Virus record (IMG/VR): IMGVR_UViG_3300022934_000118
Coordinates: 1-28,901 of that record
Reading direction: 5' to 3' (one strand)
Source: a virus
DNA length: 28,901 nt
The translations under genes were made by a program, and so were the position numbers. Each line of letters opens with the position of its first letter. Position 1 is the stretch's first letter. Positions 21,866 through 28,901 of this stretch are shown here, one piece after another. A model generated the notes under the pieces. It saw only the letters and a list, made by a program, of their open reading frames with translations, had not been told where the DNA came from and did no database searches.

Positions 21866-22118
21866 AACCCACCTTCGTTTCCGTCTGGGTCGTGTCCAAC
21901 TCCAACTCCTCTTCTTCGGAGTCTATGCGATTCAAAATCTCCAGAGCGTCGAAGATAGCGAGCTTCTTAGTAGCCGCCGCATTCTTCAGCCTGTCAGCCG
22001 CCAAGTCGTCGTCCTCACCCGGCTTTAGGATGTCCTCCTGAGCCACCTTGATGAGTTGCTCCACAGCTACCCGACCGGCAGCAATGATACGCTCCTTTAG
22101 CTTCCTTGAATCTTGCAT
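21843..22118 (-). CDS. Small helical protein upstream of terL, possible small terminase
   Basis: A 91-residue, all-helical, charged protein with basic N-terminus (M-Q-D-S-R-K-L-K-E-R) and an acidic C-terminal helix (I-D-S-E-E-E-E-L-E-L-D). It contains A-A-A-T-K-K-L-A-I-F-D-A-L-E-I-L-N-R-I, a stretch I associate with short genes just before terL in Bacteroidota phages. Its position and 23-base overlap with terL fit a terminase small subunit, though it is short and I see no clear helix-turn-helix. It also overlaps the upstream GroES-like gene by 22 bases. The gene is well supported; the function is tentative. Confidence 0.6.
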   Translation of the reverse strand: MQDSRKLKERIIAAGRVAVEQLIKVAQEDILKPGEDDDLAADRLKNAAATKKLAIFDALEILNRIDSEEEELELDTTQTETKVGFAERRSR

Positions 22119-22651
22119 GTTATTTGATGGTCGAACATTCGGTACAACTTCTCCCCGTCAACAATGAACTCGTACTCGCTCTCGGGCTTGAAGGTCACCA
22201 TGTCACCAGACGTGATTCCTTGGCTATGAAGATAACCATTGGGATATTTCATTATACCCACCAACGGCTCCTCTGTCAACGGCTTGAAGATGACAGCGTC
22301 TTGTGGCGGTATAGGCTCCACAAAGCAGTACCTATCATGGGCTGTCCACCCGGTCGTTAACGACCGCCACATATAGAATTGGTCGAAGTCAACAAGGAAC
22401 ATACCGTCACGCAAAAAACTACGCCCGCTGCGTTGCCTCCCCTTCATGTCGTTGTAGTACTTGAACACGTTGTGGTGTACAAGTAGAGTATCGCCAACGG
22501 CGATGGGACCATCATAGCCCAAGGGTAACGCAATTACTTCGCCCTCCCGATTCGAGAAGCGGTGGTCCTCCTCGTTTGCGCTAACGACAAGGTCTCCTTT
22601 GGTATTTGCGTATCTATTGCCCTTTACGATAAATTGATTGACCGCTCTCAA
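22097..22651 (-). CDS. Protein with two GroES-like folds, possible phage co-chaperonin
   Basis: 184 residues from a TTG at 22651 that overlaps the previous stop (TTGA). Two segments each follow the order of a GroES barrel: G-E-V-I-A-L-P at 37, then V-G-D-T-L-L-V-H-H at 52-60 and a strand pair near 80-96; and G-I-T-S-G-D-M-V-T-F-K-P at 145-156, then E-F-I-V-D-G-E-K-L-Y-R at 161-171 and I-T-C-K-I at the end. The second half closely follows the C-terminal strands of GroES (hydrophobic-G-D-x-V-x-F, I-D-G-E-x-Y, D-D-I-x-A-x-I). Phage co-chaperonins such as T4 gp31 help host GroEL fold the capsid protein. The location beside packaging and head genes suits this role. The fold call is by eye. Confidence 0.55.
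   Translation of the reverse strand: MRAVNQFIVKGNRYANTKGDLVVSANEEDHRFSNREGEVIALPLGYDGPIAVGDTLLVHHNVFKYYNDMKGRQRSGRSFLRDGMFLVDFDQFYMWRSLTTGWTAHDRYCFVEPIPPQDAVIFKPLTEEPLVGIMKYPNGYLHSQGITSGDMVTFKPESEYEFIVDGEKLYRMFDHQITCKIQGS
22351..22366. repeat. Perfect 16-bp palindrome, copy 2
   Basis: CGGTCGTTAACGACCG, identical to 17085-17100, here inside the GroES-like gene. The flanking bases differ from those of the other copy, so the shared block is confined to the palindrome. Confidence 0.7.
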
Positions 22652-24234: not shown

Positions 24235-24652
24235 GGTCAACAAGATAAGGGAGTTTTTCTGATACGATGAATGATGGACACGCCTTGCTGCTAAACTCGT
24301 TGTGGCCGTGCAAGGTCAAAGGTCCGAAAAGATTCCTTAGCGAGGTAACGACCTTGTACAGGCTGAAGAGCTGCTGGTGCGTCAGCGTGTCTTTCGGGTT
24401 GCCATCGCTATCAGTACCGCCAACATACACCACACCAACAGAATCTTTATTGTGCCCACGGACGTGGGCTCCAGCAACATCAAGCGGTCGGCCCCGCTCA
24501 ATGGTCCCGTCAAGGAGAATAACATAGTGATACCCAATGTCTGACCAATTGCGTGGAGGTGAGGTGTGCCACCGCCGAATCTCCTCAGTACTCACGTCGC
24601 GACCCTCAGGGGTGGCTGTACAATGTAGTATGATTCGGGTTAGCTCCCTCAC
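24227..24652 (-). CDS. N-acetylmuramoyl-L-alanine amidase (endolysin)
   Basis: 141 residues from a GTG at 24652 (GTGA overlap with the upstream stop). It is a T7-lysozyme/Amidase_2 enzyme: zinc ligands H10 (I-L-H-C-T-A-T), H117 (L-H-G-H-N-E) and C125 (K-A-C-P-S-F), with catalytic Y41 (G-Y-H-Y-V-I) and K123. The single domain has the usual length (T7 lysozyme has about 150 residues) and no signal peptide, so release needs a holin. It cleaves the bond between the glycan strand and the peptide stem of the cell wall at the end of infection. It sits between two small membrane proteins, making a compact lysis cassette. Confidence 0.92.
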   Translation of the reverse strand: MRELTRIILHCTATPEGRDVSTEEIRRWHTSPPRNWSDIGYHYVILLDGTIERGRPLDVAGAHVRGHNKDSVGVVYVGGTDSDGNPKDTLTHQQLFSLYKVVTSLRNLFGPLTLHGHNEFSSKACPSFIVSEKLPYLVDHV

Positions 24653-24858
24653 TTAATTCCCTTTTGGGCCAGCAAAATCTTCAGCTCATCGACAGCGGTG
24701 ACCAGCTTCTCGAGCATATTCATCACCTGTAGCTCCTGCTTTTCCAGCATGGCGATGCGACCCTTCAGCTTGCCGACCTCAGTCTGCAACTTGAAGTATA
24801 CACCAATCAATGCACCCGCGAGGGTGAGGATTTCGAATAGACTAATGGCATTAGGCAT
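24649..24858 (-). CDS. Membrane-anchored coiled-coil protein, holin- or spanin-like
   Basis: A 69-residue protein: one N-terminal membrane segment (about 7-22, L-F-E-I-L-T-L-A-G-A-L-I-G-V-Y-F), then a coiled coil (25-62, with L-K-G-R-I-A-M-L-E-K and M-L-E-K-L-V-T-A-V-D-E-L heptads). This topology is common for phage small lysis proteins encoded just before the endolysin, but holin and inner-membrane spanin subunit cannot be separated by eye. Upstream of the ATG is AAAGGAA, one of the few Shine-Dalgarno-like sites in the window. The stop overlaps the amidase GTG by four bases. Confidence 0.65.
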   Translation of the reverse strand: MPNAISLFEILTLAGALIGVYFKLQTEVGKLKGRIAMLEKQELQVMNMLEKLVTAVDELKILLAQKGIK

Positions 24859-24945: not shown

Positions 24946-25056
24946 TTATGGCTCGATAGGCGGGAACCACCCTAGGGCTTCGGCTTCCACTTCTGTCAGT
25001 TGGGTCGAGGTAGAGGGGATGAGCTGTGGCTCGACGGGGAGGTATACGGTAGCCAT
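24946..25056 (-). CDS. 36-aa internally deleted copy of the 136-aa cassette protein
   Basis: The ATG overlaps the upstream stop (TAATG). The first 12 residues (M-A-T-V-Y-L-P-V-E-P-Q-L) equal those of the gene at 26103-26513, and the remaining 24 (I-P-S-T-S-T-Q-L-T-E-V-E-A-E-A-L-G-W-F-P-P-I-E-P) match the C-terminus of the same protein. About 100 central residues are missing in frame. The joint falls at CAGCT, present at both edges of the missing part in the longer gene. It may be a functional mini-protein or a remnant. Confidence 0.7.
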   Translation of the reverse strand: MATVYLPVEPQLIPSTSTQLTEVEAEALGWFPPIEP

Positions 25057-25070
25057 TAGTAGATTCCGAA
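25021..25070. repeat. 50-bp direct repeat, left copy
   Basis: Matches 26478-26527 with one mismatch (25062 against 26519). It covers the last codons of the adhesin gene, the overlapping stop/start and the first 12 codons of the following small gene, marking one border of the duplicated cassette. Confidence 0.85.
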
Positions 25071-26099
25071 ATATGAGTTGAGGTCATTATTTATGCTGGA
25101 CATATTACTTTGATGGGTGCTAGTGTCATAAATAATAACCTCTTGAATAGTTCCAGTCAGACCGTTTGAAGGCCCTGCACTATATCTACAACCGACATAC
25201 GCATTACCTGGATTTGTGACGTTGGTTCCGTAACCATGTGTCGCAGTATCGAAAGTGCCGTTATTGCGTTGCAGACTTGCGTTTGTAGAATCAGATTTGA
25301 AACTGGCTAGACTGTGCGGGGTTGGTTTAGTGCCCTGAATTCTGACGTTCTTGTTGGCGCCACCTGCTGAACTACTCAGGTCTACAGCGATGTATCCGAA
25401 CGTAGTTGTACCGTTGCCCGTGTTGATATTACTGGCGGCGGTTCTGTTAAAATCCTCTCCACTAATATCAGCACAAGAAACGATACCAGAAAAATTGACA
25501 CTGGTCGTTTCTCGGAAAACATAAAAACAGGTGCGAATATCCATACGAAACGCAGGAGAGGTAATTTGCAAATGCCTTGTACTGCTGTTATCAAATTGTA
25601 GAGCAGGTCGCGAGGTAGTAGCACCCTCAGTAATCAAGTCGGTGTCGACCGTGCCCGAATGGATTTGCGGCTGGCTTGCTGGCGTTGATTGCGTAGCATG
25701 ATTTGCGTTGCCACTCTGGTCTTTCCACTCATCTACGAAACACGAAGCCGTATTGGTTAAGCTATCGGCGTTGCTGAAAGCTAAGCCCCCGTTGTAGGGA
25801 GGAACTGTACCCACATTCAGAAACTCTCCAAGCGTGGTCGCGTTAGAACCGCCCGCGCTGAAGTTTCTGACCGGAGAATCGAGGGAAATGGTAGGTGTTG
25901 CAAGACTCGTGTCGAAAACCACATCAGCCTCATCGTCATTGCCAGTATTTCCCGCCCCCGTTACGCGACGGACACGCATGGCTACGGTCGCCCCTGACTT
26001 CAACTGACGCACAGAGTAGGCTGCCGCCGCGCCGGTATAGGTGTCCAGCAGAAACGCCGAAGGCACCGTCAATCCATCTATCTCAGCAACACTAGCCAT
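25056..26099 (-). CDS. Adhesin-like fibre protein, one arabinofuranosidase-B-like domain
   Basis: A 347-residue beta-rich protein. After M-A-S-V-A-E-I-D-G-L-T-V comes L-L-D-T-Y-T-G-A-A-A-A-Y-S-V-R-Q-L, then W-K-D-Q-S-G-N-A-N-H-A-T-Q and R-P-A-L-Q-F-D. This order resembles the concanavalin-like catalytic-type domain of alpha-L-arabinofuranosidase B (Pfam ArabFuran-catal) often found in phage fibre proteins, where it probably binds sugar; I cannot see proof of catalysis. It ends in L-N-S-Y-F-G-I-Y, shared with the 563-residue paralog at 26513-28204. It begins three bases after the stop of the 136-residue gene. It is likely a receptor-binding or head-surface adhesin. Confidence 0.72.
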   Translation of the reverse strand: MASVAEIDGLTVPSAFLLDTYTGAAAAYSVRQLKSGATVAMRVRRVTGAGNTGNDDEADVVFDTSLATPTISLDSPVRNFSAGGSNATTLGEFLNVGTVPPYNGGLAFSNADSLTNTASCFVDEWKDQSGNANHATQSTPASQPQIHSGTVDTDLITEGATTSRPALQFDNSSTRHLQITSPAFRMDIRTCFYVFRETTSVNFSGIVSCADISGEDFNRTAASNINTGNGTTTFGYIAVDLSSSAGGANKNVRIQGTKPTPHSLASFKSDSTNASLQRNNGTFDTATHGYGTNVTNPGNAYVGCRYSAGPSNGLTGTIQEVIIYDTSTHQSNMSSINNDLNSYFGIY

Positions 26100-26102
26100 G
26101 TC

Positions 26103-26513
26103 TTAGGGTTCAATAGGGTCTGGGAACCACCCGAGGGCCTCAGCCTCGACCTGAGTAAGCTGGGTGGAAGTGGAAGGGATAAGCTGCCCGAACGGGACGG
26201 AGCTGCCCCGGTTGGCGTCAATGTATGCAACCAGCCCGTCCTTCTCCGCTTGGGGAACTTCGGGTAGCAGGGCGAGGAGCTCGGTCAAATCCACCAAGGG
26301 GTTGATGTAAATCTCCTCGGTCGTGTCGCCTACTATAGCCACCTCGCCCGTGACGGGGTGGGTGATGCGGGGGTAGTAGTATTTCGTTATGTCCTGCGGA
26401 GATTGCAGGGAGGCCGGGCGCCGGAGGCACCACACTTGGGCGTCGATAGCTTCGGCGCGTTCTGCTGAGGTCATGCCGAGCTGTGGCTCGACGGGGAGGT
26501 ATACGGTAGCCAT
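26103..26513 (-). CDS. 136-aa fibre-linked protein, possible fibre assembly factor
   Basis: Begins M-A-T-V-Y-L-P-V-E-P-Q-L, continues with S-A-E-R-A-E-A-I-D-A-Q-V-W, R-I-T-H-P-V-T-G-E-V-A-I-V-G-D and a helical section (L-L-A-L-L-P-E-V-P-Q-A-E-K-D-G-L-V-A-Y-I), and ends A-L-G-W-F-P-D-P-I-E-P. I recall similar small proteins beside fibre genes of marine phages; the Trp-Phe-Pro end and location recall fibre chaperones, but nothing proves it. The ATG overlaps the stop of the upstream adhesin (TAATG). A shortened copy lies at 24946-25056. Confidence 0.65.
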   Translation of the reverse strand: MATVYLPVEPQLGMTSAERAEAIDAQVWCLRRPASLQSPQDITKYYYPRITHPVTGEVAIVGDTTEEIYINPLVDLTELLALLPEVPQAEKDGLVAYIDANRGSSVPFGQLIPSTSTQLTQVEAEALGWFPDPIEP

Positions 26514-26527
26514 TAGTAAATTCCGAA
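26478..26527. repeat. 50-bp direct repeat, right copy
   Basis: The partner of 25021-25070, spanning the same gene junction in the longer cassette. The offset between copies is 1457 bases, close to the size of one adhesin plus one small gene. Confidence 0.85.
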
Positions 26528-28204
26528 GTAGCTGTTTGTGTCCGTGTGGATGCCGTTTCTATTTGTCGCGCTTTGTGCGCTGCCCCACAAAATATACTCT
26601 TGCACGTTGCCGTGGATGCCGAATCTCTCGTTCGGGCCAGTCCGAAGGCCTCCAATTCTTAAAGAACTTAGGCTATTTGTCCCCGCATTGCCGCTCACTA
26701 TACTGCTATTGTTTTTAAACATTTCCGAGCTGGTGGTATTGAACACCGTAAACAACATCATGTCCGCGTCTTTTTGACTAGTTGATACCAATTCTGTACC
26801 TGCATAAAATCTCAAGACATCAGGGGTGCCGTCGGACGCAATAGAAAGCTCGGCACTTCCTGAAATTGGATTCAGCCAACACATCTCATCAGTAGTGGTT
26901 ACAATATCCCTTGTAATAATGCTGGCCGTAATCGGTTGTGACAAGGACGAGGCGAAAGTTAAATCTAACGAAGTGTTAGCTAAAGGAACGGCATCTGTAG
27001 TTTCAAATTGCAAGGATGGGCGGACCGTTGTAGTGCCGCTCGTAATGACCGTCGTACCGTTGTATATCTTCGGTTGAATTGTGTTGAGGGCTTGGTCAAT
27101 ATGGTTGCCGTTGGTGCTTTGGTCCCACCAACGAGTTACGTATCCGTTCGCGGTCTGACAGAAATCCGCTATGGCCTGAGTGTCCAAGTCTCCGTTAGCG
27201 TCAAAACCAATATTAGCCTCCTCATCGTCGGAGTCCCTGCGAATCCTCAAAGCGATAAGCGCCTTATTTGATAGCTGACGGACGGAGTAGGCTGCTTCGG
27301 CTCCTGTGTAGGTGGCAAGGAGTCCCGATGTAGGTGCGTCGGTGGGTTGGTAGATGAGGTACTCTTCGTTGATGTTAGCCTCGATGCCTGAAGTTTGGCC
27401 AGCTCCGTTTTGGTCAGACCCCCACAAAACAAATTCTTGCAACCAAGACCTATTGCCCGTACTGTTATTAGGCCAACGAGCACCTATTAACGTCGCATCT
27501 AAAGCAGAGCTATTCGTAAACGTAACCCCCGCAGGTTGTATGTCTGCGACTGAAACCTTACCGAAGCTGCTAGACCCATTACCTACTCCAAAGAATGCGT
27601 GATGACCCATAGGCACGGTATTGCCACCGTCTATATCAGTGCCGAGCCAAACTGTCTCAGTGGAATTCCGAAATCTTAGTTGGGTATTGTTACCGAATAA
27701 ATACGCATCGGAATCTTCCTCCGTGACGCTACTCAGAGTAAATGGCTGGCTCACACTGGTCCAACTAGTGTCAAATCCACTGCGCTCTCCGGCTTTAAAA
27801 GCGGGCAATCCATTGACAAGAATTGGTGACCCAGCATCTACAAGCAATGGGCCATTAGTAGTGTCTTGAGTAATATCAGTCCCTGAACCAGTGCCCCCGC
27901 TCTGAGATTGGTCATACCACGTTACGACTACGCCGTTATTTCCAGCCCCGACAAATGTTACAATGGCATCAATATCCAAAATACCATTGGAATCAAAACC
28001 AAAATCTTGCTCCCCAATACCAGTGCCAGTACTATATACTCGGCAGCACGCCCCCGTGTAGGCAGAGTTTAAGCGTCTAATAGAATATGCAAACGTGGCG
28101 TTGGGGTAGGTGTCCAACAATCGCGTACTCGCCGTCACCGTCAGCCCGTCAAACTCCGCCACGTTATCAATGGCAGTTCCGTTAAGTTCGCTTATATCAG
28201 GCAA
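26513..28204 (-). CDS. Adhesin-like fibre protein with two arabinofuranosidase-B-like domains
   Basis: 563 residues from a TTG at 28204 that overlaps the upstream stop by 8 bases (P-D-I-S-E-L-N-G-T-A-I-D-N-V-A-E-F-D-G); a GTG at 28252 would add 16 residues and overlap more. Domain 1 spans about 25-285 (L-L-D-T-Y-P-N-A-T-F-A-Y-S-I-R-R-L, then T-W-Y-D-Q-S). Domain 2 spans about 290-563 (L-L-A-T-Y-T-G-A-E-A-A-Y-S-V-R-Q-L, then R-W-W-D-Q-S-T-N-G-N-H). Domain 2 is closest to the single domain of the 347-residue paralog, and both end S-Y-F-G-I-Y. No signal peptide. The likely role is carbohydrate recognition on the host surface. The family call is by pattern. Confidence 0.72.
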   Translation of the reverse strand: MPDISELNGTAIDNVAEFDGLTVTASTRLLDTYPNATFAYSIRRLNSAYTGACCRVYSTGTGIGEQDFGFDSNGILDIDAIVTFVGAGNNGVVVTWYDQSQSGGTGSGTDITQDTTNGPLLVDAGSPILVNGLPAFKAGERSGFDTSWTSVSQPFTLSSVTEEDSDAYLFGNNTQLRFRNSTETVWLGTDIDGGNTVPMGHHAFFGVGNGSSSFGKVSVADIQPAGVTFTNSSALDATLIGARWPNNSTGNRSWLQEFVLWGSDQNGAGQTSGIEANINEEYLIYQPTDAPTSGLLATYTGAEAAYSVRQLSNKALIALRIRRDSDDEEANIGFDANGDLDTQAIADFCQTANGYVTRWWDQSTNGNHIDQALNTIQPKIYNGTTVITSGTTTVRPSLQFETTDAVPLANTSLDLTFASSLSQPITASIITRDIVTTTDEMCWLNPISGSAELSIASDGTPDVLRFYAGTELVSTSQKDADMMLFTVFNTTSSEMFKNNSSIVSGNAGTNSLSSLRIGGLRTGPNERFGIHGNVQEYILWGSAQSATNRNGIHTDTNSYFGIY

Positions 28205-28901
28205 TTTTAATCCAGTCTTGAGAGGGAATGAAAAGAACCTTCGACGCACCAATCTGGTGGCCCACTACGCGAGAGTATTCGTCGGTAGTGCTGGGCTGAG
28301 TGGCCGTAAGCTCGCCAGCCGTAACTGTATCGACGTACAGGATATCGCCCGCCGAACCCGGGGTGTGGTCGAGGATGCCGATACCCTGAATGAGCATGCC
28401 GTCGGTAGCGGGAGTAGTGCCCAAAGCCATAGCCAGCAACCCCTTGGTGGTGTCCTCCCCACCTACGCTCGCGTCGACAGGCTCCCAGTCGCCAGAAAAG
28501 AACGTATACACCTTGCCCGCCGAAGTGGTGTTGGTATTGCCGAAATAGACGACCGTACCCTCAGCGTCGCCAGCGGTGGATAGAGCCGCAGTGCCGGCGT
28601 TGAAGTTTATCTCCTGACCCGCGACGTTGGCGGTGACAGTATCAGAGAAAGACAACTGCCCCGAAGCGTCAGTAACCATAGGTTGGTTGGCGACAGTGCC
28701 GTCAGCCTCAGGAAGGGTGAGCGTATACGTAGCCGCAGCAGCGTGGAGAGGGCTCTTGATAGTAACCCCGTGGCTGTTCTGCTCGCAGTTGAGCTTGATG
28801 GAACCAGCGTTGGTGCCGCCAGCGTCCTGATTGCCCCGAACCTCAACGACGCCCGTGCCGTTAGAGTCAAGGGCGATGTTCCCGTTGGTGGTGCTGGTAT
28901 C
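28197..28901 (-). CDS. Tail-fibre-type structural protein, 5' end cut by window
   Basis: The frame is open from the right window edge to a TGA at 28197, giving 234 visible residues; the start lies outside. The first visible part (G-T-G-V-V-E-V-R-G-N, then I-K-L-N-C-E-Q-N-S-H-G-V-T-I-K-S-P and A-A-A-T-Y-T-L-T-L-P) is a stretch I know well from fibre and baseplate-like proteins of marine phages, including cyanophages. It continues with D-A-S-G-Q-L-S-F-S-D-T. The C-terminal half (V-Y-F-G-N-T-N ... G-L-L-A-M-A-L-G ... G-I-L-D-H-T-P-G-S-A-G-D-I-L-Y-V-D) is a compact beta domain. It is a virion fibre part upstream of the duplicated adhesin cassette. Confidence 0.78.
   Translation of the reverse strand, partial: DTSTTNGNIALDSNGTGVVEVRGNQDAGGTNAGSIKLNCEQNSHGVTIKSPLHAAAATYTLTLPEADGTVANQPMVTDASGQLSFSDTVTANVAGQEINFNAGTAALSTAGDAEGTVVYFGNTNTTSAGKVYTFFSGDWEPVDASVGGEDTTKGLLAMALGTTPATDGMLIQGIGILDHTPGSAGDILYVDTVTAGELTATQPSTTDEYSRVVGHQIGASKVLFIPSQDWIKIA

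Follow-up and report, generated by a model that had tools for sequence, protein, structure and literature searches.

A gene of 36 codons lying directly behind an adhesin gene in the genome of an uncultivated phage raises the question of whether it is a small gene maintained in its own right or the residue of a larger one. The window, by which we mean the whole stretch of DNA analysed, comprises the 28,901 bases of an uncultivated-virus record, and holds on its minus strand two adjacent LamG-like genes, the first followed by a full-length gene of 136 codons and the second by the short gene. The initial annotation had taken the short gene for a version of this long neighbour that lost 100 residues in frame at a CAGCT microhomology while keeping both ends exactly, and had suggested that its product may still be translated and could serve as the terminal tag of the system. 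Both open reading frames were confirmed, and the features on which the argument turns are as follows.

26513..28252, minus strand: slot-1 LamG-like adhesin/fibre protein, 579 aa, C-terminus NSYFGIY
26103..26513, minus strand: slot-1 partner gene, full-length, 136 aa, predicted alpha/beta fold (mean pLDDT 86)
25056..26099, minus strand: slot-2 LamG-like adhesin/fibre protein, 347 aa, C-terminus NSYFGIY; its stop overlaps the ATG of the short gene
24946..25056, minus strand: short gene, 36 aa, MATVYLPVEPQL joined to IPSTSTQLTEVEAEALGWFPPIEP; both ends of a partner-family gene, with the internal 99 codons absent
25021..25056, minus strand: 5' part of the short gene, first 12 codons, matching the long gene and locus L008 at 36/36 nt
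24946..25026, minus strand: 3' part of the short gene with the junction CAGCTC, nearest to loci L004/L017 (about 85-86% over 66 nt)
24649..24858, minus strand: conserved 69-aa gene 3' of slot 2, used as synteny anchor

Along the minus strand one finds, in order, the 579-aa LamG-like protein, the 136-aa protein, the 347-aa LamG-like protein, the 36-aa short gene, a small ORF, the 69-aa protein, an amidase, a 57-aa ORF, a fibre, a 73-aa ORF, a GroES-like protein (184 aa, PHROG 13932, window positions 22097-22651, between the fibre and terminase genes), a 91-aa ORF, the terminase and an 811-aa ORF. The large terminase is 75% identical to that of the uncultured podovirus MW202828 and about 45% identical to those of Flavobacterium elemo phages, and its search matched 87 records, Cellulophaga, Tenacibaculum and Maribacter phages among them; this kinship suggests that the host probably belongs to the Bacteroidota. 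Both adhesins are labelled virion structural proteins by PHROG 10356. In Pfam, relatives gave PF13385 below the cut-off and, in the 579-aa protein and L018, PF09206 above it, while the predicted model of the 347-aa adhesin (mean pLDDT 40) is too poor to support a fold label, so that the designation LamG-like is a putative one, resting on weak Pfam matches of relatives and on our reading of the sequence. A search of the phage collection with the 347-aa adhesin returned nothing useful.

The short gene retains the frame, stop and start overlap of a partner gene, as originally described. A 1-nt overlap joins its ATG to the stop of the 347-aa LamG-like ORF, which ends at 25056, and the ATG of the 136-aa gene is joined in the same way, by 1 nt, to the stop of the 579-aa LamG-like ORF ending at 26513. 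An internal in-frame loss is evident; however, the missing middle amounts to 99 residues, the hundredth being a separate single-residue in-frame loss near the C-terminus (FPDPIEP to FPPIEP). Because of this additional loss and one Q-to-E change, the two ends, although both present, cannot be called exact. Across the first 12 codons the long and short genes are identical at every base (36/36 nt), within a 5' stretch of about 40 nt common to both window copies, and the first 24 nt of the short gene recur unchanged in several relatives. In the C-terminal part the copies differ at 15 of the leading 20 codons; 14 of these differences are silent, the only replacement being GAA/CAG (E/Q). Over its C-terminal 63 nt the short gene agrees with its neighbour at 45 positions and with L004, the closest sequence there, at 51, which makes the neighbour a cousin rather than the parent. 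Alignment of the two genes thus removes the neighbouring long copy from consideration as parent, its 3' part being too different, and the short gene is not a recent deletion copy of it, contrary to what had been assumed. With the frame open, the start-stop overlap kept and the retained residues family-typical apart from the one lost, decay of the short gene has not visibly begun.

The microhomology itself was borne out. Both edges of the missing segment carry CAGCT in the long gene, a 5-bp match, although two further copies are present in the same gene (four occurrences, at 0-based offsets 30, 308, 327 and 351). Only 0.98% of 19,695 simulated deletions of in-frame length in the long gene have at least 5 bp of microhomology. 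Since the 3' edge reads GGGCAGCTCATCCC in the relatives L003b, L004, L006 and L017, and CAGCTCATCCC in L013, the microhomology available in the actual parent may have been 6 bp long, CAGCTC. What is supported of the initial annotation is an internal, in-frame loss at a CAGCT(C) microhomology from a member of this family, its start overlap and stop being kept.

The family to which the parent would have belonged was recovered at 19 viral loci with the 136-aa protein as query and at 64 with a family alignment, many contigs being common to both. There are 59 distinct full-length genes, where "distinct" means only that identical DNA was dropped and close relatives stay in the count, and none of the 59 is internally shortened. 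Incomplete copies (L016, L020, L068, L084, L086, L087) sit at the ends of their loci, L026 holds a diverged member matched at positions 5-132, and two copies each occur in L003, L009 and L055. In the last of these (L055:360-1200) two family genes stand in tandem behind one adhesin, an arrangement that is a possible source of deletions and chimeras.

An ORF lies directly upstream in 57 of the 59 genes, at gaps of -4 to +69 nt, with start overlaps of 1 nt in 26 cases and 4 nt in 13. By eye, 56 of these 57 upstream ORFs are LamG-like and the remaining one is a second family gene in tandem; a scripted tail test matched 52, its five misses being that tandem copy, in L055, and L052, the other L055 copy, L057 and L068, which are LamG-like by eye. 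For the two exceptions, L042 and L078, the locus contains no ORF of at least 50 aa upstream, and the upstream DNA of L042 shows the end of an adhesin. The LamG-like proteins are highly variable save for a C-terminal stretch such as SSNRTGIETNINTYFSIY. Approached from the opposite side, a LamG-motif scan blind to the partner gave, among the matches listed, 81 cases in 80 loci; one running off a contig end and 10 duplicates were dropped. In the 70 distinct cases that remain among the matches listed, the following gene is a family member in 28, a remote relative in 13 and neither in 29. The partner gene is therefore frequent, not universal, behind LamG-like adhesins, and a LamG gene that lacks a recognised family member, as do 29 of these 70, is not abnormal. 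The 29 include L167, which carries the stub of L112 (described below), and L138, with only 27 nt downstream, and several of them, among the matches listed, then carry other small overlapping genes. Four such genes (L131:251-484, L166:1235-1477, L129:114-347 and L180:8029-8256) encode proteins of about 76-81 aa of at least two sequence types; none has a PHROGs match, those of L131 and L129 have no Pfam match, and other LamG-following small proteins gave nothing useful against the phage collection.

In the libraries scanned, this small family of proteins associated with LamG-like phage adhesins has no name. The 136-aa protein has no match in Pfam up to E=1 or in NCBIfam up to 0.1, and only one of 19 members gave a single, chance-level PHROGs match (E 0.095). 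Pattern searches of genome_contigs for the family produced 48 matches, none confirmed; in the phage collection a DNA search with the 136-aa gene gave nothing useful, and the family proteins gave four chance-level records at E<=1 and otherwise none. By sequence, the PDB returned 19 matches, all glutathione S-transferases, the best at E 0.29. A fold search with the AlphaFold model found nothing in the PDB at E<=0.001 and weak resemblances only (best second-look Z 3.5), many of them to what we take to be ferredoxin-like proteins; a viral structure library contains two strong fold relatives without names, A0A516LUZ7 and A0A516L0A7.

The position of the short gene is informative in another respect. 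The 69-aa anchor gene was located in 43 loci, part of which begin too near it to show slot 2. A LamG gene with a full partner precedes the anchor in L003/L111, L009/L101, L024/L104, L025, L108, L067 and L010, and in L016 and L102 the slot is truncated where the contig ends. Elsewhere, for example in L089, L090, L092 and L093, the slot is occupied by a different fibre type (presumably "BspA-like/LRR") that has no partner. It is these partnerless contigs to which the window backbone just downstream of the slot is nearest (L092, 94.5%; L093, 92.4%; L089, 90.6%; L090/L091, 88.7%), and homology to them breaks at 24946-24954, where the short gene ends. That homology ends at this point, and that a different fibre without partner lies beyond it, argues that slot 2 is an exchanged cassette. 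L003 is the relative found here that has the whole two-slot order with LamG genes in both, and its copy in the slot of the short gene is full-length; since its backbone is only about 81% identical to the window, it illustrates the arrangement, not the immediate parent.

We consider it likely, at a probability of roughly three in four, that the short gene is what remains of a complete partner gene from a swappable adhesin cassette, after its middle was deleted. Such a cassette would pair a LamG-like virion adhesin gene with an immediately following gene of some 135 codons that encodes a small alpha/beta protein, and the window has two adjacent adhesin slots. The partner in slot 2 would have had a 5' end like that of L008 and a 3' end like that of L004/L017, and slippage or illegitimate recombination, the probable cause, would have removed 297 bp lying between two of its CAGCT(C) sites. 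Both adhesins are probably served by the slot-1 partner, unless the slot-2 adhesin needs none. From gene order and joint exchange, the likeliest role of the partner would be that of a chaperone in adhesin assembly or of a tip cap. What is observed is the sequence relations, the synteny and the remnants in other contigs; we infer the deletion event, since its parent gene was not found, and likewise its timing and the absence of a function for the 36-residue peptide. As expected of a remnant, full-length counterparts occupy the same place in L003 and other loci, and most of the product is lost, 99 of 136 codons being gone from the middle. On the other hand, the frame is open and the retained residues are family-typical; disrupted frames and eroded residues are common, but not obligatory, signs of a pseudogene. 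The initial annotation had held that full-length or frameshifted copies in relatives would indicate recent decay, and this is largely the situation encountered, with the slot-2 copy of L003 full-length and the remnant in L112 out of frame.

Remnants of partner genes were found in four other contig groups, one retaining both ends out of frame (L112) and three being stubs of the 5' end only. In L112, MATVYLPVE is joined out of frame to the 3' end AEALGWFPPFPI, and a near-twin, L113, carries a full-length partner (99.3% identity over 6756 nt by BLAST, the near-identity starting at about L112:330); such pieces need not, then, stay in frame. Stubs of 15-18 residues from the 5' end lie between the adhesin and an intact partner in L042, L047 and L063/L064, the last pair being one stub in two assemblies (99.99% identical). 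These stubs fit other lineages better than the gene beside them (L063, 40/42 to L015 vs 24/42 to its own resident gene; L042, 24/24 to another clade vs 19/24; L047, 22/24 vs 18/24), which suggests that an adhesin gene, when it moves, can carry along the opening codons of the partner behind it.

The 5'-only stubs of L042, L047 and L063 favour a different route, which we regard as possible but doubtful, whereby the short gene owes its 5' end to an incoming LamG cassette, or to conversion from slot 1, and its 3' end to a resident partner gene of another lineage, the joint being CAGCTC; the product would still be a remnant, formed another way. The disparity between the two window copies, identical at their 5' ends (36/36) and dissimilar in their 3' parts (45/63), would also be in keeping with such a joint. 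However, codons 2-8 rank first among the 128 seven-codon stretches of the gene for silent conservation in the close clade of 18 genes (0.77, vs 0.56 for codons 13-136), with a slight excess across all 59 (0.47 vs 0.44 overall), so that identity at the 5' end is weak evidence for transfer, and conversion from slot 1 loses its force as proof of a chimera. Moreover, both ends are nearest to PQL-type genes (L008 for the 5' end, L004/L017 for the 3' end), for which a simple internal deletion suffices, and the cassette edge falls at the 3' end of the gene, away from the junction.

That the short gene is maintained, its peptide translated by coupling to the adhesin stop and binding the adhesin as a minimal cap or strand donor, is improbable, even though frame, start overlap and stop all survive and its residues are typical of the family. 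A remaining function is best argued from the retained ends, which hold 14 of the 25 invariant family columns (hypergeometric P about 0.0007, rising to 0.003 when the shared QL is counted with the other edge). Yet no further in-frame copy with both ends emerged from three pattern scans of viral_contigs, near-identical records perhaps excepted, the ATGGC patterns of which scans recover the short gene of the window itself; of three matches, L249 and L250 are unrelated and due to chance, and L251 is the L047 stub again. The only other remnant with both ends, that of L112, is out of frame, and an in-frame state in one of two is what chance allows. The predicted fold, furthermore, would be mostly gone, leaving the strand at 3-8 and the helix at 121-126. 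The orthologs of the short gene that a maintained gene would lead one to seek in relatives were thus not found in viral_contigs, and the "terminal tag" role is unsupported; translation of the 36-aa peptide is possible. An assembly artefact of the metagenome contig is quite improbable, for although the two copies share about 40 nt at the 5' end, collapse of that repeat would be expected to exchange gene bodies and not to delete the middle, and independently assembled contigs carry similar stubs, one of which was assembled twice (L063 and L064). Scarcely credible is the proposal that the peptide is a chaperone cut down to its binding ends, the two conserved termini being kept as a stop-start-coupled docking cap.

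In mosaic phage genomes, gene remnants lie at recombination joints, as truncated ends in or out of frame beside the exchanged module; what differs here is that the cuts fall repeatedly in one and the same small gene, at one edge of the module. As a leftover of a cassette partner, the stub is itself ordinary, and its value is as a marker of the points at which adhesin cassettes are cut and rejoined in uncultivated phages. Collectively, the stubs point to an unnamed family linked to LamG adhesins, a candidate chaperone or cap for host-binding proteins.

Tail-fibre assembly chaperones are known under names such as Tfa/Caudo_TAP, gp38-like and A5 gp9-like. The partner family shares with them its location directly downstream of an adhesin (LamG-like by eye for 56 of the 59 genes), and the 136-aa protein matches no known-chaperone profile in Pfam, NCBIfam or PHROGs. 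Literature searches on LamG phage adhesins and on chaperone and boundary mosaics gave one close match, in which the tail fibre and downstream cognate chaperone of Alteromonas phages A5 and V22 are exchanged as a module (PMC10579305). The A5 fibre works without its chaperone, and loss can therefore be tolerated (PMC10579305). The likeness lies in a gene placed directly behind a host-binding fibre gene and shared, together with that gene, between distant phages. The chaperones described there, of 240 and 195 aa, are similar to intramolecular chaperone domains (PMC10579305), whereas the partner family has about 135 aa and a predicted alpha/beta fold; the resemblance is one of gene order, and no homology is claimed.

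The association of LamG-like sequence with the partner gene also occurs in another setting. In L013 (5291-10414) a structural protein of 1568 aa bears the LamG-like C-terminus as a fusion, and the partner gene is still next; the counterpart of this protein in the window, of 1286 aa, has no partner and is followed directly by a 267-aa gene.
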